NCBI GenBank assembly: GCA_016215105.1 | Contig: JACRLJ010000061.1 | Span: forward strand, 1 to 57,116 | Source of the DNA: Candidatus Hydrogenedentota bacterium | GTDB lineage: Bacteria > Hydrogenedentota > Hydrogenedentia > Hydrogenedentales > SLHB01 | Reading direction: 5' to 3' | Length of the DNA: 57,116 bases | In this document: piece after piece, positions 23,039 to 46,488 of the stretch | Position numbering within the stretch: position 1 is the stretch's first letter | Layout: every line of letters starts with the position of its first letter | Notes under the pieces: model-generated | What the model was told of the DNA's origin: nothing | The model's database searches: none | What the model saw: the letters and a program-made list of their open reading frames with translations, nothing else | Position numbers and translations under genes: made by a program

Positions 23039-23288
23039 AGTTTAGACGTGTTTTCTCGACGATGGACTAGAACAAGGGATACATCGTTGCTATACTGAGT
23101 GAGGCTGGTGGGCCAAGACGCAGGAGCGATCCGTGACGTTGCAGAGAAATCGAGCAAAGCGCCGGGGGAGACGCGTCGCGCTTTCCGCGCCCGCCGTTCT
23201 GGCTGATACCTTGGAATCGAACGTGAATCTTGCTATGGCGCCGGTTCGGCGCGGTGTCCCATCTGTTTTCCAACGGAGGTGTTTCCAC

Positions 23289-26200
23289 GTGCGTAATCAA
23301 TTCAGCCTCCTCCGAGGCGCCGGTCTAGCGATTGTGCTTCTAGCGACAGGGTTGTTTTGGACGCCGTCGGCGCAGGCGCAGCTGTCGATAGACTTCAGCG
23401 CGGCCACGTACACCGGCGCGGAAGGCACCGCGATCGATGTGACGATCAACATATCGGCGGCTCCAGGCGCAGGGAATTCGGCGTCCGTAGATTATGCTTG
23501 TGTAGGCGGCACGGCAGTGCCCGGCCGCGACTACACGCCAGTCAGCGGTACGGCGAATTTTGGCGCGACGACTACCAGCGTGACGTTTTCCATACCGACG
23601 TTCGCGAATGACTGGATAGTATGCGATCCGACCGTCATTGTGCGATTGAGTAATCCGATTGGGAACGGCGTGGCCGTAATTCTGGGAACACAGAACAATG
23701 ACGCTCCCACGATTGTCACCATAACGAAAGAAGCGCCGTCTACCGCGACCGTCACGGCCGAAGACCACATACGAGACGCCGAAGGACTGCTTCCGCTGGA
23801 GGACTGGGTACCGCTTTTTACATTCACGCTCACGACGGCACAGGACCAGCCGGCGTATCGCAGAGTTCAGCAGCTTGTCTATGATATCAAGCACGACGGA
23901 TTTCCGGACCCTCGTCCGTATGACACCGTTGGGGGGCATCCGCCCCAGGACACCATACAAGAATTCGCCATTGTTCAAGACGGCGGTCCGGATGGAAAGC
24001 CCGACGGCGAACTGAGTTTTGTGTGGGACTCCTCCCCCATTTACCGATGGAACAATGCTGGCGCGCCCTACGGGACAGTGACCGATACTGGCGCCACTCT
24101 CGAATATAACCTCGACCTTTCGACTGGCCCGTTCGCGTTGACTCCCGCGCCGGATACCGGTAACCAATACTTCGTTGTCGTGCGCACGTCGGCGTATTGG
24201 TTCAATCGGCTGACAATGAGCGCGAACCTGCAATTCCTCCGGCTGATTGATGTTCATGGGGTGTTTCCCTTTAACTGCGACGGTAAGCCCGTGGACTCGT
24301 ATCCCGAAAAGATACCGTGGGTCGCGAGTGAAAAGGGGTATTCGTCGAGTTTTGCGGTACATGACGTCACCAGCGGCCCCGCAGCAGGGCTCGCAAACAG
24401 ACTGAATCCCTGGTACGCGAACGCGTGGAACTATCCGAAGTATTTGTACACGCCGTTTGCGGAACGGCTTCGCCCCCGCTATGACAAAGTGGGCAACTTC
24501 TTCGACCTGGTCACGGGAGAGTGGATGGATGTGCGCAATCTATTCCCGCTCGAACAGTGGAATGCAGTAATTGGAATCACTGCGCACGGCGCGGAAAAGA
24601 CGGTAGATGATGACCCGACCGCGACTGGGAACAAGATATCGTTTCCTGGTGAGATGGACGAAGTGAACGTGGTGCTGACCGATATCGGCGCCGACCCTCT
24701 GGTACCGGGCAGCGGCGGTTTTGACCCGCGTACTGCATTGCACACCGTAACCGACGAGGGAAATGTCTTTACTGGAACCGATACCCATCACGCAAAGGGC
24801 AATGACTTTGCATTCAGCGGGCTTTGGGTGTTCCACGATACCAACGGAAACAACATTTTCGATCCACCGATACAATCGAACACCGCCGGCGTCGAATTCG
24901 TGGACTTCCCGTTATGGCCGTATGGCACCTTCGTTAACGGGCAACAGGTATTTGGTATCCACGAGTGGGAGTACGTGAGTTTTCCTCCGGACGGCGGGGA
25001 TCCGTGGTGGAAGATGAAACTCCAGTTCTTTGATGGACGCCGCAGGGCCGCCGGCGAAACGCCCACCGGGTATCTGGACCCCACACCGCATGCGTTTGCG
25101 TCGGGCCCTTACATTCCCAGCGATCACTTCCACAATTACTTTGTGGTAGTTCGTCCGGACAGCGGCTACCAGGACGTTTCACTGTTACCGGGTGACGGAA
25201 CGGGGATGCCCGCCGGCGCCGACTTGAGAGCGTTCATCGAGCCACGCCGCTACAATGCATTCAAGGGCCAAGAGGATGGCGGTATCCATTTCACCCTGCA
25301 ACGTCCGATTCTTTGGGAGCCGTGGCAGAACAATTCAGAATGGACCGCGTCGGAACCTTGGTGGCCACAGCGCACATTGAACGCGAATAACGCGAAACCA
25401 ATTCGCAATGCGGTCGAAATTCACGACTTGGTCCTCACTTACTCCAGCGATAATACCTACGATCGAATCACCAACGTCGACTACAGCAATTCGAGCATGA
25501 TCGACACGAACGGTCTACCATCGTCATACGCTTTTGGCAGCAGCACTTTTGACACGTGGTTGGATCCGTTCGGACTACTGCAAGGGCAGTTCCATTACGG
25601 TCAGAGCGTTGGCACAGTGACGTGGCAAATGTACTTTTATGGCACTTTCCCTGGAAATGTGGCTGTTTTCAACACCGATTGGCACTCGAAATTCCAGTAC
25701 CCCTACGAGACGGCGCCGTTCTTCAACCCGTTCTTTGACGGTACGGCGATGCCCCCGCGGTCGATCTTCTTTTCGAACCCGCCCGCGCAGCCAACACTGC
25801 CGGACTACTCGACGTGGATATCCAATGTCGGGCCGTCCGGGCTTGCTCCCGGGAGATATCCTTCGGCGGCCGACTGGCCCTTGGCGCAACGCGCGACCCG
25901 AATACTCAAGCAGCACATTGACATCGATGGTCCGGCGACCGCCATTCTGGGCATCAATCTAGTCGGAGTCGATGACCCGGTCACGAACCGTATTGCGCCG
26001 ATGTCGTTGAGCGAGATCACTGTTGCGATATACGGGTCCGAATTCTTACCGGCCGACTTGGCCACGCTGAATGCCCAGGGGGCTGCGAGTTCGGGTGTCG
26101 CGCTCTACGAGGATTCAGACGGCAATGGTGTGTACGCTGGTGACCTCGGGGGGGACCAAGTGGTGACGCTGCAAGGACTGGCGTGGCGCACTACCCCGGA

Positions 26201-29200
26201 ACTCATCGATCTGACTGGCGACGGCGTGGCCGACGATTTGAGCGGTGATGGCTTTGTTGACGCTAAGGACAAGGCGTGGGTGCTGACCCTTAAACCGTCA
26301 TCGCCATGGCAGCTCCCGATTTCTGACGAGCGCCAGGGTGGCGGATTGGGAACGCTTGGCGGCAAGGAGACCGATGACGCATCGGCGCCGTCGGAGATGC
26401 AGGATTCGATACTGGGATTGAACGTTGGCGTTGCGCCGAACGACCCGAAGCTGGAACAGGAAAAGGCGTCGGGAGACGTTGCGGCTGCAAACGACCCCGC
26501 GCCGAACGACCTATCGACAAAGCCAACGCACAGCATTGACGCGACGGCCGTTCGTGAGGCCGCAGTGGCGCGGGCGAAGGATCTTCGGACCAAACGCGCG
26601 AAAGGCCTGACGGCCGGCGGTCATCAAGGGGATGACCTGTTTGTGGTGATCACGCCTTCGGACAAGGCGCGCCGGTTCGAACATTTCCGCATGCTTGTTC
26701 CGGCAACGCTGCCGTCGCGGCCCGTTCCGGACCGAGTGGCGGGTGTCCAACTATCGCCGGCGAATCTGCTGAATCCGAAAGCGCTGCTCAAGACGAATCC
26801 CGAAGAAGGCGCCGTACAGGATTACTACGGCCACGACAATATCGAGTTTAATGTTCCGGCCAGGCTGACGAACCTTACGACAACGGATCAGATAATTCCC
26901 AAGAATTCTCCGCCTACGGAGGTACTGGGAATTCAGTGTTCGACGAACCGCGGCAACGCGGCAATCGCAGCGACTGGAACGGATGGTGTTGGCGGCGTCA
27001 AGCTGCTAAGCGTTCCCGGCGCCACCTGGACTCCGGGCGCCTTTGTGGGATACTGGCTCCTTGACGGCAACTACGAGCCGTATCAGATCACGGGCAATAC
27101 CGCAACGACACTCACGTTGTTGAGCGGTACGCCCAAGAACGGGTTCTACCGAATTGAGAAGGACCCGACCTTCCTGGAGCAGGTGGTGGTGGAGGTCTAT
27201 GAACCGGCTGACGGTTCGTTCAAGTTCGCGGATGATCTGCAACCGCTGGACATCGACCAGACTGTAAGCGGACTTGCCTTGTACCGGGATAACGATCAGA
27301 ATCCGTCGAACCGTAATGGAAAATTCGATCCTGACGTAGACATCCCGTTGAAACTGGATGTGACACCGTATATTGCCGCGCGCGCCGGTGAACCGCCCAA
27401 CCAAGTGCGATTCATCTTCTCAACGCCCGGCACCGACAACCTTGGACCGGGTTCCGCGTCGCTCCCGATGGCGAATCAGACTCGCCACCGCCAGTGGATT
27501 CCGGACACGTTTGGAACGGCGGAGGATGATCCGGACACGGGTCCCACGTTCTTTGTGGTGGTCCGGACCTCGAACAAACTGGTGACCGGAGCGACGCTCC
27601 GTATCGGTATTGTCTCGTGGGGTCCGAACACGCCGACGGAGCCTGATCCGGACACGTTCCCGCCCCCGCCTGTCACGCTACGAAGCGACGAATTCGATAT
27701 CTTCAGCGAATTCCCGTGGGGTTCGCGGGCCATCGGGTTCATTACTTTCTTCAAGGATCCATCAAGTTTGGATCCACCTGATTTGTCAGGATTCAACTGG
27801 GTGCGTTCGACGATTGCGCAGGCGGTTGTGACGAGTACGATGTACGGCGGCGTGCCAATACCCGCGGCCGATGACGTGGTGATCAATTCCGTGTCGCGTA
27901 GCGCTCTGCCGGCAGTCGTGGGAGCGGGCGGCCTATCGTTCACGATATCGGGTGTGAATTTCGGAGGGGCGCCGATCGTGACGCTTGCCGGAATCACTCT
28001 GACCGTGAATTCCGCCACCAATACGCTGATTGCGGTAACGATTCCCGCAGGCAGCACGTTTACGGCTCTACCGGTGCTGTTGAAAGTCACGAATTCGACC
28101 ACGGGCAAGTTCGCGGTGCGTGACGACTTGTTCACGTTGCCTGCGGTCGGCGACGTGTCAATTACCGGAGCATCTCCGAGCGCGCTGGATCCGGTGATTG
28201 GCGCAGGCGGGTTCCCCTTCACCATCACTGGGTCAGGCTTCGGCAACTCGCCGAAGGCGACGATCAATGGCGTAAATCTCACGATTACCTCCGCGACGGA
28301 TACCACCATCGCGGCGGTTATTCCGGCCGGCACGGCCTTCACTGTTACGCCAATCGTTCTCAAGGTTACCAATCCGACGACCGGCAAATCGCAGACGCGC
28401 GACGACCTGTTTACGCTCACGGGTGGCCCTCCACCCCCGCCGGATGTGGTTATTTCCGCGGTATCGGTCAGCGTTGTTCCGGCGACCATTCTGCCGGGCG
28501 GCTTGGCCCTGAATATCTCGGGCAGTGGTTTTGGATCTTCGCCGAAAGTCACCCTTCAGAGTCACACTCTGACCGTGAATTCGGCCGCGGATTCGCAAAT
28601 CGCGGTGACGATACCGGCCGGCACGACGTTCCTGCGGACGATCCCGATGACGCTAACGGTCAGCAATCCGCTGACGATTAAGCAGGCGTCCCGGGACGAT
28701 CTCATCAGCATCGCGTCGCAGCCGACAATCCTGAGCGTGACACCGAATCACGGCCCGAGCAGCGCGTTCCCGGTCAGGATCACGGGGACCAACTTCGATC
28801 AGCCGACGGTGTACTTTGGCGAGACGCTCATGCCGGTGCAGTCGTGGACCACGACGCAAATCATTGTGGCGTTTCCGACGGGTGGCCTGCCGTCTACGGG
28901 CCCGTTAGACGTGTTGGTGATCAACGCATCGACGGTGAGCGCTACTCTTACGGACGGGTTTGCGTATGAGAATCCGCCGGTACCGGGTCCGGCGCGCGCG
29001 TGTTTTATTGCGACAGCCGCGTACGGGACACCGCTGGAGAGCCACCTGACCACATTCCGCAATTTCCGGGATGGGGCGCTTTTGAAGTCGGCCGCGGGCG
29101 CGGCGCTCGTGGACGTGTACTACACAACGAGCCCGGCGATCGCGGACGCGGTGGCGGAACATCCGGTTCTGGCGCTCGTGGTCCGGCTGGTATTGACGCC

Positions 29201-29474
29201 GGTAGCGTGGCTGCTGGAGGCCCCGATCTCCGTGGGAAGCGTCCTGGTGGCGATGACTCTTGTATATGGGATGTTGCGCCGCCGGCGAAGTGAGATCGCG
29301 AACCAGTCACCTGTTCAGAATGGCGAGTATCCTCGCCTTCGTGATAACCTCGCATACGGCCTACGCCTATTACCCAATGGGCGCGTTTTCGACCCAGTCT
29401 CAGGAACTGGTCATTCCGAAATGGCCCCTCAGTTATATGGATACCAACCGGGACGGCGATATCAGCGGGCCTAA
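23289..29474 (+). CDS. giant exported Calx-beta/IPT protein with CFI-box-CTERM tail
   Basis: The ~2,060-residue surface or secreted protein starts at GTG 23289 (GGAGGT upstream), giving a clean signal peptide ending SAQA before QLSIDF; an upstream GTG 23133 also has AGGAG. A Calx-beta domain (GTAVPGRDYTPVSGTANFG) follows. The ~1,350-residue middle has no family I can name, with calcium-loop-like DTNGNNIFD and DSDGNGVYAGD. Four IPT/TIG domains begin near residues 1529, 1622, 1720 and 1812. The tail carries ACFIATAAYGTP (Cys1905), AAGAALVDVYY, a hydrophobic helix and RRRR near 1996, the layout of CFI-box-CTERM proteins. The frame continues about 60 atypical residues past the arginines and overlaps the next gene by 155 bp, so the natural stop may be lost. 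Confidence 0.85.
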   Translation: MRNQFSLLRGAGLAIVLLATGLFWTPSAQAQLSIDFSAATYTGAEGTAIDVTINISAAPGAGNSASVDYACVGGTAVPGRDYTPVSGTANFGATTTSVTFSIPTFANDWIVCDPTVIVRLSNPIGNGVAVILGTQNNDAPTIVTITKEAPSTATVTAEDHIRDAEGLLPLEDWVPLFTFTLTTAQDQPAYRRVQQLVYDIKHDGFPDPRPYDTVGGHPPQDTIQEFAIVQDGGPDGKPDGELSFVWDSSPIYRWNNAGAPYGTVTDTGATLEYNLDLSTGPFALTPAPDTGNQYFVVVRTSAYWFNRLTMSANLQFLRLIDVHGVFPFNCDGKPVDSYPEKIPWVASEKGYSSSFAVHDVTSGPAAGLANRLNPWYANAWNYPKYLYTPFAERLRPRYDKVGNFFDLVTGEWMDVRNLFPLEQWNAVIGITAHGAEKTVDDDPTATGNKISFPGEMDEVNVVLTDIGADPLVPGSGGFDPRTALHTVTDEGNVFTGTDTHHAKGNDFAFSGLWVFHDTNGNNIFDPPIQSNTAGVEFVDFPLWPYGTFVNGQQVFGIHEWEYVSFPPDGGDPWWKMKLQFFDGRRRAAGETPTGYLDPTPHAFASGPYIPSDHFHNYFVVVRPDSGYQDVSLLPGDGTGMPAGADLRAFIEPRRYNAFKGQEDGGIHFTLQRPILWEPWQNNSEWTASEPWWPQRTLNANNAKPIRNAVEIHDLVLTYSSDNTYDRITNVDYSNSSMIDTNGLPSSYAFGSSTFDTWLDPFGLLQGQFHYGQSVGTVTWQMYFYGTFPGNVAVFNTDWHSKFQYPYETAPFFNPFFDGTAMPPRSIFFSNPPAQPTLPDYSTWISNVGPSGLAPGRYPSAADWPLAQRATRILKQHIDIDGPATAILGINLVGVDDPVTNRIAPMSLSEITVAIYGSEFLPADLATLNAQGAASSGVALYEDSDGNGVYAGDLGGDQVVTLQGLAWRTTPELIDLTGDGVADDLSGDGFVDAKDKAWVLTLKPSSPWQLPISDERQGGGLGTLGGKETDDASAPSEMQDSILGLNVGVAPNDPKLEQEKASGDVAAANDPAPNDLSTKPTHSIDATAVREAAVARAKDLRTKRAKGLTAGGHQGDDLFVVITPSDKARRFEHFRMLVPATLPSRPVPDRVAGVQLSPANLLNPKALLKTNPEEGAVQDYYGHDNIEFNVPARLTNLTTTDQIIPKNSPPTEVLGIQCSTNRGNAAIAATGTDGVGGVKLLSVPGATWTPGAFVGYWLLDGNYEPYQITGNTATTLTLLSGTPKNGFYRIEKDPTFLEQVVVEVYEPADGSFKFADDLQPLDIDQTVSGLALYRDNDQNPSNRNGKFDPDVDIPLKLDVTPYIAARAGEPPNQVRFIFSTPGTDNLGPGSASLPMANQTRHRQWIPDTFGTAEDDPDTGPTFFVVVRTSNKLVTGATLRIGIVSWGPNTPTEPDPDTFPPPPVTLRSDEFDIFSEFPWGSRAIGFITFFKDPSSLDPPDLSGFNWVRSTIAQAVVTSTMYGGVPIPAADDVVINSVSRSALPAVVGAGGLSFTISGVNFGGAPIVTLAGITLTVNSATNTLIAVTIPAGSTFTALPVLLKVTNSTTGKFAVRDDLFTLPAVGDVSITGASPSALDPVIGAGGFPFTITGSGFGNSPKATINGVNLTITSATDTTIAAVIPAGTAFTVTPIVLKVTNPTTGKSQTRDDLFTLTGGPPPPPDVVISAVSVSVVPATILPGGLALNISGSGFGSSPKVTLQSHTLTVNSAADSQIAVTIPAGTTFLRTIPMTLTVSNPLTIKQASRDDLISIASQPTILSVTPNHGPSSAFPVRITGTNFDQPTVYFGETLMPVQSWTTTQIIVAFPTGGLPSTGPLDVLVINASTVSATLTDGFAYENPPVPGPARACFIATAAYGTPLESHLTTFRNFRDGALLKSAAGAALVDVYYTTSPAIADAVAEHPVLALVVRLVLTPVAWLLEAPISVGSVLVAMTLVYGMLRRRRSEIANQSPVQNGEYPRLRDNLAYGLRLLPNGRVFDPVSGTGHSEMAPQLYGYQPGRRYQRA

Positions 29475-32400
29475 CGAAGGTATCCCGATTACGTTCGAGA
29501 CGGGGAATCTGGGGTTCAGTGGCTCTGAAATCGACCTCGTAAAGAGCGCATTCAAGACCTGGTCGGATGTTCCGACTGCGTTCATTGGATTTCGCTACAC
29601 GGATCCGGTGCCCAACCTTCCCGATTCGCTGGAGCTTTCGGCGGATATCGGAGCAATGGACTATTTCAACTACGTCGCGAAGGAAACTACTGGCGATACC
29701 CAGGTGCTTCCAAGCGGGGTCGCTGGCATGACCTTTATCACGTCCACCGTGGACGCGACCCAGATATACATAGACGGAAACTCCTACGACATCAACGGTG
29801 GCACCATTCTTGATGTGGACATCGCGCTGAGCGACATTCTTGCAGAGACGAATCTCGCGGGCGCGGCAACCGTAAACATCGGGTACATGCTAGGGCTTGC
29901 CGCGAATCCCCTGGGCTATAACTTGCGGGGAGTCAGTATCCGGACGGAGGACGGGTATTGGCCCCTGGCGTTCTACCTGCCCGAGCATGGCTTTAAGTCA
30001 ATAGCGATGTGGGAAAATCCGCATGTTCAGTTGCGCGATGCGTCCGGCCAACTAAAGAATTTCGGCGTGACACCGTCCATGTTTCCGTACCTGCACTGGT
30101 ACGCCCCGGGACCCGTTCTGGCCCCGACACGGTTCTCCGCCGACTACGAGTACGCCAGTCCTACAAAGTCGGTGGCGGAAGTGGAAGCGGAACTCAGTCC
30201 GCTTCCGAAATCCGCGGTTGAACCGTATCTTACCGGTATCGGAGTATCGTATCTTTTCCAGAACTTCGCTGGTCAGAATGCAAATTTGATGAGCCAGCCC
30301 GCAAAGGGTCTCAAACTCAAGGTATCCGAGAACTTCGCCGCTGGACTCTCCACCGCCAATCTCTTCACGGACTACTTGGTGGACGGAAAGTACCGCGTAT
30401 ACCGGACGGAGCTTCAGTCGCAGGACGCGCTTGGTTTGCGTCTGGAAGTGGACCTGGCGACTCTGCGTCCAGAGGAAGAGCTTTGGGTAATCGATCCCAC
30501 GGTCATGCGATCCTTTGGGCCGTTCACGCGCACAACCGGTCCCCGCAGCCATCGTTGGCTGCCCTGGGTGCAGGGCGATACGACGGCCTTGGTGGTGCGC
30601 TCCACCGGCGCAGAGACGCCCGACGTGACGATCGAGCAGGGATCGCATTTCTTCCGATCCCTGGACGAGGCGGCCAAAGAGTTAGGGTGTTACGTAAACG
30701 TCGCGTGCGAGACTGACGCGACACTCCAGAAGATTTCTTCCGGCATAGGGCTCGTCCAGGCCATAATCGGCTTCAGCGGCTTTATGGCGTCCGGAAGTCT
30801 GCTCACTAACCCGGACACAGCGGAGCGCGAACCGTACTTTTTGACCGCCAATCACGTGATCGGCGACATTGACATTGCGCTGAGTTGCGACATTTTCTGG
30901 GACTACCGGATCGCGACCTGCGCCGGCGTCAGCCCGCCCTCGCTGTCCTCCGTGCCGCGTAGCTCAGTCACTGAATTGCTCGCCACGCTGCAGCCGCTGG
31001 ACGCCTCGCTGGTCAAACTGGACACCGTGCCCGTGGGCTCCTATGGCCGCGCGTATCTTGGGTGGGATTTCCGCCTGCCGAGCACAAAAGATGGCGAGAA
31101 CCGGTTCGTGGGCATTAGCCACCCTGGCGGTAGTCACATGCGCCTCTCCAAAGGAAAGATTGCGTCCATTGGCAACGAGGTCCTTGTGAGTGAATTCGGA
31201 CCGGTAATCGGCATGATTGAGTGCGACTTCGATTCAGGCGTGGTAGAACCGGGATCTTCCGGTTCCCCGCTGATGTACGACGACCCCGATCATCGCGTTC
31301 TCGGAATGCTAAGCAATGGCGACTCCAGCCAGACCTGCGAGACAAATCCATACAAAGCGAGCTACGCGTCGTTCCGCGATTTCTTTCCCTTTATCGCCGG
31401 CTACCTAACCGGAACACCTGCCCCGACACCGGAAGACCGGTGCGGTCAGGAAGGCGCGCGCGACCTCGCGCCAGATGATATTGCGGCGCTCAGCGACCTC
31501 TACCCCCGGAAAGGCGAGGACGTTTTCTTCAGCTTCCAGCAGGAAGCAAGAACTCACACCAACGGGCAAACGCTTCCAAGCGTTCCTATCGCCGGCGGTT
31601 TGATAATAGCCTATTGCGACACGGACAACGACCCCAGCACGTCGCGCATTCCGGTGTTCTCAACACTGACCAGCCTGTACCAAGTTCAAAACGCGACACG
31701 CGGCCGATTCGACATGAAAGGGTTGTACAAACAGTTCGAGACCAGCGCGGGCGGCCTATTTGACGCCACCTACACGTTTACGGTAAGCCCGATCTACAGT
31801 CCGCTGTGGCTGCACTTGTCCTTGGATCCCAAGAGTTACGACTCGACGCACGACGGATCATTCGTTACCGGTGGTCTTCCCGGGTTCAGTTTCTCATCGG
31901 GCTATCCCTCCGAGGTGTTCCATGAAAACGGGAACCTCCTGGACGAATCGCGCTACGATGAAGGCACTCCGCTCAAGTACGACCGTATCCGGCGCCAGGT
32001 GATTAGCGCGGATTCGATGCGCTCACTTGCCACCATTCTGCCCGGGACCAAACCGATGTTTGGCGACGGCGTATCCAATTGTCCCTACGCGGTGGCGTCG
32101 ATAGGTCTGTCTTCAAGCAAAGGTCCGGATGCGCTGCGGGCGCTACGCGACCGCTACCTGCTGCACAGCGCGGTTGGCGCGGCCTTGGTTGACGTCTATT
32201 ACCATGTCGGGCCGTCACTTGCGGAATACCTGCTGACGCACGCGACAGCATGGCGTGTAGCCCATGCCGCCGCGGCGAGCGTCGAGTGGTCGCTCTCCCA
32301 TTCGGTTCACGTTGTTACCGCCGCTTTAGTTCTGATGTTCATGACGCTGGGAGGACTGAAACTTATGCGCCGCCGGATGGTACGACGGTCAACCCTGCTG

Positions 32401-33003
32401 ACGCTGGCTCTGAGCGCGCCGTTCCTGTTCGCAAGTTCGGGTAGCGCGCAGCTCTTGCAGATGAGCAACGAGCAAATGGTGGCGGCGTCCAATGACATTG
32501 TTACGGGTGAGGTCGTGGCCGTTGAAAGCCACTGGAACGACCGCAAACAAATTGTCACGGATGTGACCATCAAGGTGAACGACGTCATCAAAGGCAAGGC
32601 CAACAAGGATGGCCACGTTTCTCTTCAGGTACCCGGCGGCCGTGTGGGCGGTATCGTCACGAGAGTGACATTCATGCCCGCATTCTCTCCGCAGGAAAAG
32701 GTAGTTGTGTTTCTGGAAAACCGGAAGAGCGGTCCCAAGAACACGGCTGCAAGTCCGCTGATCGTAGGCGGCACACGCGGGAAACTCGAGATTACCGAGG
32801 ACGCCACAACCAAGGCGGCCTACGTGACCGGCGGCAGTGAAGAAGCCCAACTACAGATCGCCGAAGCCAACTCCGAGATGGCGAAAGAGTCCAAGGACGC
32901 CAGCGCGACCCCGAAGGACATGGCGCAGTCCAACGAAAAGATTGCGCTCAGTGACTATACCCAGTACTTGCGCGGCATAGTGGCGAAACAGAAGAATAAG
33001 TGA
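29320..33003 (+). CDS. exported trypsin-like protease nested in a degenerate matrixin, CTERM tail, C-terminal fusion
   Basis: From ATG 29320 a signal peptide (MASILAFVITSHTAYA) precedes a matrixin-like region with ITFETGNLGFSG, VKSAFKTWSDVPTAF and ILDVDIALSDIL. Where HExxHxxGxxH should be, residues 185-195 read VNIGYMLGLAA, so the zinc site is gone. A trypsin-like domain follows with His512 (TANHV), Asp561 (LDASLVKLD) and Ser649 (GSSGSP), and then the matrixin-type ending APDDIAALSDLYP (719-729). Thus the serine protease appears inserted in the metalloprotease fold. A CTERM-like tail begins at Cys921 and shares GAALVDVYY with the upstream protein, ending in a helix and RRRMVRR near 1016. The frame then continues without a stop into a small exported protein (see 32365). 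Confidence 0.8.
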   Translation: MASILAFVITSHTAYAYYPMGAFSTQSQELVIPKWPLSYMDTNRDGDISGPNEGIPITFETGNLGFSGSEIDLVKSAFKTWSDVPTAFIGFRYTDPVPNLPDSLELSADIGAMDYFNYVAKETTGDTQVLPSGVAGMTFITSTVDATQIYIDGNSYDINGGTILDVDIALSDILAETNLAGAATVNIGYMLGLAANPLGYNLRGVSIRTEDGYWPLAFYLPEHGFKSIAMWENPHVQLRDASGQLKNFGVTPSMFPYLHWYAPGPVLAPTRFSADYEYASPTKSVAEVEAELSPLPKSAVEPYLTGIGVSYLFQNFAGQNANLMSQPAKGLKLKVSENFAAGLSTANLFTDYLVDGKYRVYRTELQSQDALGLRLEVDLATLRPEEELWVIDPTVMRSFGPFTRTTGPRSHRWLPWVQGDTTALVVRSTGAETPDVTIEQGSHFFRSLDEAAKELGCYVNVACETDATLQKISSGIGLVQAIIGFSGFMASGSLLTNPDTAEREPYFLTANHVIGDIDIALSCDIFWDYRIATCAGVSPPSLSSVPRSSVTELLATLQPLDASLVKLDTVPVGSYGRAYLGWDFRLPSTKDGENRFVGISHPGGSHMRLSKGKIASIGNEVLVSEFGPVIGMIECDFDSGVVEPGSSGSPLMYDDPDHRVLGMLSNGDSSQTCETNPYKASYASFRDFFPFIAGYLTGTPAPTPEDRCGQEGARDLAPDDIAALSDLYPRKGEDVFFSFQQEARTHTNGQTLPSVPIAGGLIIAYCDTDNDPSTSRIPVFSTLTSLYQVQNATRGRFDMKGLYKQFETSAGGLFDATYTFTVSPIYSPLWLHLSLDPKSYDSTHDGSFVTGGLPGFSFSSGYPSEVFHENGNLLDESRYDEGTPLKYDRIRRQVISADSMRSLATILPGTKPMFGDGVSNCPYAVASIGLSSSKGPDALRALRDRYLLHSAVGAALVDVYYHVGPSLAEYLLTHATAWRVAHAAAASVEWSLSHSVHVVTAALVLMFMTLGGLKLMRRRMVRRSTLLTLALSAPFLFASSGSAQLLQMSNEQMVAASNDIVTGEVVAVESHWNDRKQIVTDVTIKVNDVIKGKANKDGHVSLQVPGGRVGGIVTRVTFMPAFSPQEKVVVFLENRKSGPKNTAASPLIVGGTRGKLEITEDATTKAAYVTGGSEEAQLQIAEANSEMAKESKDASATPKDMAQSNEKIALSDYTQYLRGIVAKQKNK
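32365..33003 (+). CDS. small exported protein, possible independent product of internal start
   Basis: ATG 32365 lies in frame inside the upstream gene, preceded by GGGAGGA at good spacing, and begins a clear signal peptide (RRSTLLTLALSAPFLFASSGSA). The 212-residue product has MSNEQMVAASNDIVTGEVVAVESHW, VTDVTIKVNDVIKGK, VSLQVPGGRVGG and SPQEKVVVFL, a pattern I associate with small exported proteins of unknown function. It is probably a separate gene whose upstream neighbour lost its stop, giving both a fusion and a free form. An intrinsic terminator follows. Confidence 0.6.
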   Translation: MRRRMVRRSTLLTLALSAPFLFASSGSAQLLQMSNEQMVAASNDIVTGEVVAVESHWNDRKQIVTDVTIKVNDVIKGKANKDGHVSLQVPGGRVGGIVTRVTFMPAFSPQEKVVVFLENRKSGPKNTAASPLIVGGTRGKLEITEDATTKAAYVTGGSEEAQLQIAEANSEMAKESKDASATPKDMAQSNEKIALSDYTQYLRGIVAKQKNK

Positions 33004-33548: not shown

Positions 33549-34442
33549 TTGCGAAGCCTCATCATACGTCAGTTGTTCGTGCTGGTTGACCTCGCGCTCG
33601 CGCTTGCGCTGATCGCGGTGCTATGGTTGGTTGTCGCGCGAGTACTTCGTCCCGAAGCGGCGGCGCCGGCGCCGGGCGCCGTGGAGGGTGCGACCGCTCA
33701 GCCGCTCGAACTGCGCGAAGTCCGTGCGCGGGCCGACTATGACGTGATAGCGAATAGCGCGCTCTTCGGTCCAGGCGGCCAGATCGCGCCGCCGCAGGCG
33801 CCGATTGATGTTCCCGCGAACGACCCGGTGGTAGCGACCAAACTTCCACTTCGGTTGGTTGGCACGGCCGCTGCGGCGCCGACCGACCCGGTCGCTACGG
33901 CGACGATTGAAAACGTGGCGTCCAAGACGCAGGCGGTGTACTACCTGAACGATGAGATTATGGCGGGCGTCAAGCTCGTCGAAGTGCAACGGCGCAAGGT
34001 CCTCTTGGAGAATAATCAGAAGCGCGAGCTTCTGAGCATGGACGAGGAGCCCCCTGCGCCCGCGGGGCCGGTGGTTGCTTCCGCGGCGGATGCGGGGCCG
34101 AAGCTCGGCGCGAGCCCGCTGAAGATTTCGATGAAGAAGGACGAGTTGATTACCGAGCTCTCCGCGAATTACGCGGACATCTTGGGGCAGGTGAGTCCCG
34201 AGCAACACACGGACGCGAGCGGAAAAGTGGACGGTTACACGTCCAAGAATCTGGCCAACGTTCCTCTGGCAAAGAAGATGGGTTTGCAGAACGACGACGT
34301 GCTTCAACAGATCAACGGCGTGACCATTGACAGTCCCGAGAAGATCGTGGAAGTGGCCAACAAGTTCAAGGACAATCGCACCTTCCAGTTGACGATCCAA
34401 CGCAACGGGAAACGCCAGGTAATCACATACAATTTGGAGTAA
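33549..34442 (+). CDS. gspC: type II secretion inner-membrane protein GspC with PDZ-like domain
   Basis: GspC links the inner-membrane platform to the secretin. The 297-residue protein has one N-terminal helix (VLVDLALALALIAVLWLVV), a Pro/Ala linker, an HR-domain-like stretch (LPLRLVGTAAA, AVYYLNDEIMAGVKLVEVQRRKVLLEN) and a C-terminal PDZ-like domain (PLAKKMGLQNDDVLQQINGVTIDSPEKIVEV). The TTG start follows AAGGA. It begins the gspC-M operon. The PDZ ending rather than a coiled coil matches the E. coli/Klebsiella-type GspC layout. Confidence 0.88.
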   Translation: MRSLIIRQLFVLVDLALALALIAVLWLVVARVLRPEAAAPAPGAVEGATAQPLELREVRARADYDVIANSALFGPGGQIAPPQAPIDVPANDPVVATKLPLRLVGTAAAAPTDPVATATIENVASKTQAVYYLNDEIMAGVKLVEVQRRKVLLENNQKRELLSMDEEPPAPAGPVVASAADAGPKLGASPLKISMKKDELITELSANYADILGQVSPEQHTDASGKVDGYTSKNLANVPLAKKMGLQNDDVLQQINGVTIDSPEKIVEVANKFKDNRTFQLTIQRNGKRQVITYNLE

Positions 34443-45972: not shown

Positions 45973-46488
45973 GTGGCCAAACTTAACTTGCAGCCCAGGG
46001 ACCGCCGTGTGCTGGCCATTGGCGCGATCGTGCTCCTGGTATGGGGCGTCTATCTGGGCGCGCAAGGCCCCATCAAGAAATATCAGCTTTCCAAAAAGAA
46101 CGTTACGGAGGCCCGCGACCGAATCAAGAAGCTCCGCACGTTCGAGGCGGATATCGAGAGTGACCGGAGCGGCCAGACGGCGTTCAAGACGGTCGCCGCC
46201 GCGCGCCCTCGAGGATTCGATCTTTTTGTCTACCTCAAGAACCTTAGTGACACGGACCTGAAGGGACGAGCCGATCTCAAGGTGCAAAGCAATGCGACGC
46301 TTGGCGGAGCGTATTCCCAGGTACAACTGACCATGAATGGTGTCGCCATTGACGAAGTGGTCAATTTCCTGCACAAGGTGTACGCGAGCAAGAATCTCAT
46401 AGCCGTGCCTCAGGTGGATTACCTGAGGTTGACGCGCGATCAAAAAGGGCTAGAGTGCCGGCTCACGTTTGTGTCGCCTCGCGCGTAA
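45973..46488 (+). CDS. gspM: type II secretion protein GspM
   Basis: GspM partners GspL. The 171-residue product has a short cytosolic head, one helix (VLAIGAIVLLVWGVYLG), a coiled-coil (ARDRIKKLRTFEADIES) and a small periplasmic domain. GTG 45973 follows AGGAG. The 98-bp gap before it contains a GTCGGAC-type repeat. It appears to be the last gene of the operon; no gspN or prepilin peptidase follows. Confidence 0.85.
   Translation: MAKLNLQPRDRRVLAIGAIVLLVWGVYLGAQGPIKKYQLSKKNVTEARDRIKKLRTFEADIESDRSGQTAFKTVAAARPRGFDLFVYLKNLSDTDLKGRADLKVQSNATLGGAYSQVQLTMNGVAIDEVVNFLHKVYASKNLIAVPQVDYLRLTRDQKGLECRLTFVSPRA

Follow-up and report, generated by a model that had tools for sequence, protein, structure and literature searches.

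A single open reading frame from Candidatus Hydrogenedentota bacterium (GenBank assembly GCA_016215105.1) combines what are two genes elsewhere in the phylum: a lysyl-endopeptidase-like protease lies inside a matrixin-like protein. This nesting is real and unusual, lies far beyond what chance would produce, and confirms an observation made in an earlier sequence-only reading of the same DNA. We consider it probable that a domain insertion produced it: the host, a secreted, membrane-anchored product of the type II secretion (T2SS) locus, would have received an additional copy of a lysyl-endopeptidase-like zymogen in the loop that links its Met-turn to its last helix. Judged from its sequence, the nested protein is most likely a surface-anchored protease with altered specificity on a zinc-less matrixin scaffold. 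Both component families are known; their nesting is unique so far, and the nested form is represented by one genome only, a metagenome bin. The protein offers a before-and-after case in which one protease family appears to have been inserted whole into the catalytic domain of another, with the empty site visible in about fifty orthologues and the free-standing donor type in about thirty relatives.

Architecture of the nested protein

The window, by which we mean the whole stretch of 57,116 nucleotides analyzed (contig JACRLJ010000061.1, positions 1 to 57,116, forward strand), contains an uninterrupted open reading frame of 1247 codons at 29260-33003 (+), whose probable ATG at 29320 yields a product of 1227 amino acids. 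Its parts and the two neighboring genes are given below with window coordinates, strand and supporting evidence.

23133..29474, +, giant CFI-box protein of 2113 aa, Calx-beta-like, with TIG repeats; conserved upstream partner
29320..29367, +, signal peptide of the host protein, residues 1-16, MASILAFVITSHTAYA (orthologue alignment)
29368..30090, +, matrixin-like N-terminal part, residues 17-257, with DTNRDGDISG, a degenerate active-site helix and the Met-turn (orthologues, AF2, Foldseek)
29872..29904, +, VNIGYMLGLAA, residues 185-195 (HExGHxxGLGH at this place in zinc-site-bearing orthologues)
30091..30120, +, N-terminal junction or linker, residues 258-267 (ends of host and protease homology)
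30121..30678, +, propeptide of the inserted protease, residues ~268-453, with the conserved Lys453 at its end (collinear with standalone proteases; AF2)
30679..31434, +, inserted lysyl-endopeptidase-like catalytic domain, residues ~454-705 (phmmer, Pfam, Foldseek)
30853..30855, +, predicted catalytic His512 (invariant in 32 sequences)
31000..31002, +, predicted catalytic Asp561 (invariant in 32 sequences)
31258..31260, +, predicted catalytic Ser647 (aligned to S194 of Achromobacter protease I, API; invariant)
31357..31359, +, Ala680 at the position of the S1-pocket Asp (API D225; D in 30 of 31 relatives)
31435..31461, +, C-terminal junction, residues 706-714 (homology to standalone proteases continues as the linker to the CFI-box Cys)
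31462..31506, +, last matrixin helix DLAPDDIAALSDLYP, residues 715-729 (conservation, AF2, counterpart in MMP-11)
31507..32064, +, beta-rich host domain, residues 730-915 (orthologue alignment; AF2)
32071..32367, +, degenerate CFI-box (Cys921), transmembrane segment and basic stretch, residues 918-1016 (NF041770, alignment)
32371..32448, +, internal signal-peptide-like segment, residues ~1018-1043 (in this protein and 49 orthologues)
32449..33000, +, C-terminal host domain, residues 1044-1227 (conserved among orthologues)
33549..34442, +, gspC

Our search of 68 Hydrogenedentota genomes returned matches in 67. One recurring ORF, about 800 aa long, corresponds to residues 1-260 and 711-1225 of the nested protein, and other ORFs, typically of about 550 aa, match residues 270-706. 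Residues 1-257 together with 715-1227 constitute an orthologue of the ~800-aa protein, and its signal peptide aligns with those of 49 orthologues, most of which end in AxA before FFPxG. From the Met-turn (TPSMFPY, 251-257) to the last matrixin helix, the loop measures 17-19 residues in all 49 orthologues and about 458 residues here. Host homology ends at about residues 257-262, and protease homology begins at about 268-274, just past the region that forms the signal peptide in the standalone proteases.

The claim of a serine protease within matrixin-like flanks thus holds, since the flanks are one orthologue, present in 49 genomes, and the middle corresponds to separate protease genes; the residue numbers given for VNIGYMLGLAA (185-195), His512, Asp561 and DDIAALSDLYP (719-729) were also correct. 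The search for homologues with the same nested order that had been proposed yielded none: no insert is present in any of the 49 orthologues, and the nested form is absent from every other genome examined. In the literature on CFI-box-CTERM and on a nested matrixin and lysyl endopeptidase, we found nothing relevant.

Matrixin fold and zinc site of the host part

The nested protein gave no PF00413 match and no matrixin assignment by Pfam or NCBIfam. Orthologues bearing the zinc site match PF00413 (one at E 1e-5), and 16 of 26 orthologues match a myxobacterial metalloprotease family weakly. The AF2 model of the host part, built from 31 host sequences, has pLDDT values of 81-94 over most of residues 17-257 (dips to 67-76; one short loop at 41-46) and of about 95 for the helix 715-729 that contains DDIAALSDLYP. 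In Foldseek comparisons, MMP-13, MMP-3, and karilysin rank first (best E 6e-4, probability 0.99), with modest TM-scores (TMt ~0.44) and high rmsd for the MMP matches. In a profile alignment, DLAPDDISGISFLYPR falls opposite the last helix of MMP-11, SLSPDDRRGIQHLYGR, at low score. Both TPSM of the Met-turn and DDIAALSDLYP are conserved among the orthologues, with L716, A717, and Y728 of the last helix invariant in 50 of 50 sequences, and the host part retains 52 of 54 near-invariant columns, which is within the range of the orthologues. AF2, Foldseek, and alignment therefore agree on the picture drawn in the sequence-only reading, in which a trypsin-fold protease splits a matrixin-type fold that has lost its zinc ligands, and they predict both the Met-turn and the C-terminal helix in the host part. 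The structure comparison that had been suggested in that reading gave matrixins (MMPs, karilysin) as best matches of the flanking model and lysyl endopeptidases as those of the insert model; the two parts were modeled apart, and a closed fold around the insert lies outside both models. Near the N terminus, an EF-hand-like DTNRDGDISG (window 29440-29469) is kept in most orthologues, some of which give weak EF-hand matches in Pfam.

At residues 185-195, where HExxHxxGxxH would be expected, the nested protein has VNIGYMLGLAA. The motif is intact in 24 of the 49 orthologues and gone in the other 25, all of which are without an insert. In a maximum-likelihood tree of the host proteins, the state of the zinc site changes four times, with at least three of these changes forced by well-supported branches. 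Because zinc loss recurs in insert-free orthologues, the loss in the nested protein is not attributable to the insertion. A putative surface protein that is found at the T2SS locus phylum-wide and keeps its zinc site in half of its orthologues lends itself to the study of how enzymes turn into scaffolds.

The inserted protease

The insert aligns with Achromobacter protease I (1arb) in phmmer at E 3e-15 and matches Pfam Trypsin_2 at E 1e-5 with a score slightly below the gathering threshold. Modeled alone by AF2, it reaches a mean pLDDT of 91, and the top Foldseek matches of this model are the lysyl endopeptidases 1arb and 4nsy. In the protease tree, the insert groups with lysyl-endopeptidase-like proteases of Hydrogenedentota with 100/100 support; it sits on a long branch, and its placement inside the group is not settled. 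Its close relatives, one of which is located on contig C33 of the same genome, are encoded separately and come with a signal peptide and a CFI-box tail of their own. The insert has neither; it starts at the mature start of the standalone proteases and stops in the linker that precedes their CFI-box. A direct copy of the C33 paralogue was considered as the source and rejected, as the tree does not place the two as sisters, and no direct repeats that could be traces of an insertion flank the insert near the junctions.

His512, Asp561, and Ser647 are invariant in 32 sequences, and the GSSG motif is intact in the insert. Catalytic Ser649, as had been proposed from the sequence, needs correction: we assign the nucleophile to Ser647, the second Ser of GSSGSP (645-650), because this residue aligns with S194 of API and is invariant, unlike S649, which varies. 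The equivalent of API D225, the residue that sets Lys specificity in this family, is Asp in 30 of 31 relatives and Ala in the nested protein (residue 680); the replacement suggests a changed specificity. The partners of the C36-C58 disulfide have been replaced together (Ala490, Val513), while the other four Cys residues are present, one of them shifted by one residue. A standalone relative in genome G062 (L041) likewise lacks this Cys pair (CSG..HC), which indicates that absence of the disulfide is tolerated. A conserved His at position 600 is Ser in the insert. Lys453, located ahead of the first mature Cys, has a Lys counterpart in 22 of 31 relatives, and this fits maturation after Lys. With 40 of 48 near-invariant columns retained, the second lowest number in its protease group, and with its long branch, the insert is divergent enough to make loss of activity possible; on the sequence features listed here, protease activity appears likely.

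Origin and function of the nested protein

For the proposed domain insertion, we envisage that a zymogen copy, minus signal peptide and CFI-box tail, entered the short loop of a matrixin-fold protein. The host part would then export the protease via Sec and the T2SS, and its CFI-box and transmembrane region would anchor it. The protease would be active with a specificity other than for Lys. Its maturation would occur at Lys453, probably through another protease, e.g., the CFI-box paralogue encoded on contig C33; such a cut would also split the matrixin scaffold, and the mature protease would keep its connection to the last helix and to the anchor. One may go further and picture the two halves of the zinc-less matrixin, once split by cleavage at Lys453, as a latch that holds or releases a T2SS-delivered surface protease of new specificity; we think that this extension is unlikely to be right.

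Several other explanations bear on these data. The one to which we give some weight, while still judging it rather unlikely, sees the insert as a non-proteolytic pseudo-enzyme whose altered S1 pocket serves as a binding module. The change of the S1 Asp to Ala, that of the His at 600 to Ser, and the missing disulfide would suit it, but the catalytic triad and the GSSG motif have all been retained. That the insertion broke the host, so that both parts of a decaying gene are now drifting, is quite unlikely: the host branch is among the longest and several conserved residues have been lost from the insert, yet the frame is open throughout its 1247 codons, the conserved columns of the host are nearly all kept, and in the insert the triad and GSSG are intact and both Cys partners of the disulfide disappeared together.

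The sequence-only reading had tied the loss of the zinc site to the insertion, with the matrixin turning into a scaffold or inhibitor of the protease that it received. The nested protein, with its zinc ligands gone and its fold kept, would look just so; the same loss in 25 of 49 insert-free orthologues, spread over several separate lineages, with at least three to four changes of state on the tree, makes this course of events very unlikely, and a role as an inhibitor module for the inserted protease is not supported by any evidence. We attach still less weight to an assembly chimera, in which the assembler joined a protease into the host gene. Its appeal is that the nested form comes from a single metagenome bin and that the comparison set includes no second genome of the genus. 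Against it, both junctions preserve the reading frame and coincide with domain boundaries, the expected neighbors are found on both sides, and a second host gene is missing from the bin, as is any near-identical protease (best 44%); the insert carries substitutions of its own and is not of foreign composition, its G+C content being unchanged. On these sequence data, we take the insertion to be genuine and the host to be under constraint. Combined alignments of host and protease for one structure model were tried and discarded, as host rows became aligned to the insert.

Relation to known proteases

With matrixins (peptidase M10; MMPs, karilysin), the host shares the predicted fold, including the active-site helix, the Met-turn, and the last helix; unlike them, it lacks the zinc ligands and has a whole protease zymogen separating the Met-turn from the last helix. 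In MMP-2 and MMP-9, fibronectin type II repeats are inserted in the catalytic domain before the active-site helix; these are small binding modules, and the enzyme is active. The likeness lies in a domain inserted into a matrixin catalytic domain, whereas here the inserted domain is another protease, placed after the Met-turn of a zinc-less matrixin. The insert shares fold and triad with the lysyl endopeptidases (Achromobacter protease I, 1arb; Lysobacter LysC, 4nsy), and its order of propeptide and catalytic domain is that of its standalone relatives. It differs from the lysyl endopeptidases in having Ala for the S1 Asp, in lacking one of the three disulfides of the family (C36-C58), and in being nested, with no signal peptide or tail of its own.

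CFI-box, C-terminal region and T2SS locus

The NF041770 model scores 36.3 bits on the protein and 41.6 bits on the genome, against a curated cut-off of 40. Cys921 of the CFI-box is invariant in a 26-sequence alignment. CFI-box matches in this genome number four only, namely two giant proteins, the nested protein, and the C33 protease. VesB is a T2SS-dependent surface serine protease with a C-terminal GlyGly-CTERM tag (PMC11389362), and MYXO-CTERM proteins likewise depend on the T2SS and are retained on the surface through a C-terminal tag (PMC11980579). The resemblance to these exported proteins consists in surface retention, presumed for the host, through a C-terminal Gly or Cys motif, a transmembrane helix, and a basic end, and by analogy the CFI-box may act as a surface-holding tag here. 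It is, however, a different and uncharacterised tag, and in the host it is internal, with another domain of about 200 residues after it, as in the other orthologues. Sorting by XrtH (NF033207) was dropped as a candidate, since just one orthologue matched, and weakly.

After the transmembrane helix and the basic stretch follows a second signal-peptide-like segment (window 32371-32448), mostly ending in AxA and present in 49 of 49 orthologues; in the nested protein and the orthologues alike, it is followed by a conserved domain some 180 residues long. From its sequence, the protein may be a polyprotein that signal peptidase I cleaves at this segment. What looked like a free-standing C-terminal domain in genome G056 turned out to be a contig end.

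Downstream of gspC, the window carries gspD, gspE, gspF, pseudopilin genes, gspK, a gspL-like gene, and gspM up to position 46488. The orthologue sits between the giant CFI-box gene and gspC, gspD, gspE in most lineages. The giant gene adjoins it in 43 of 49 cases (two are fused into a longer ORF and four have little or no upstream sequence), and gspC lies downstream in 31 of 49; in family f3, gspC was not found beside the orthologue. In G014 (L074:3749-12085) and G013 (L082:3777-11867), the matrixin-like protein forms the end of ORFs of 2779 and 2697 aa, respectively, and is not a separate gene. In the window, the giant CFI-box gene has a C-terminal extension past RRRR and overruns the likely start of the nested gene by 155 bases (29320-29474), an overlap that possibly reflects translational coupling or a recent extension.
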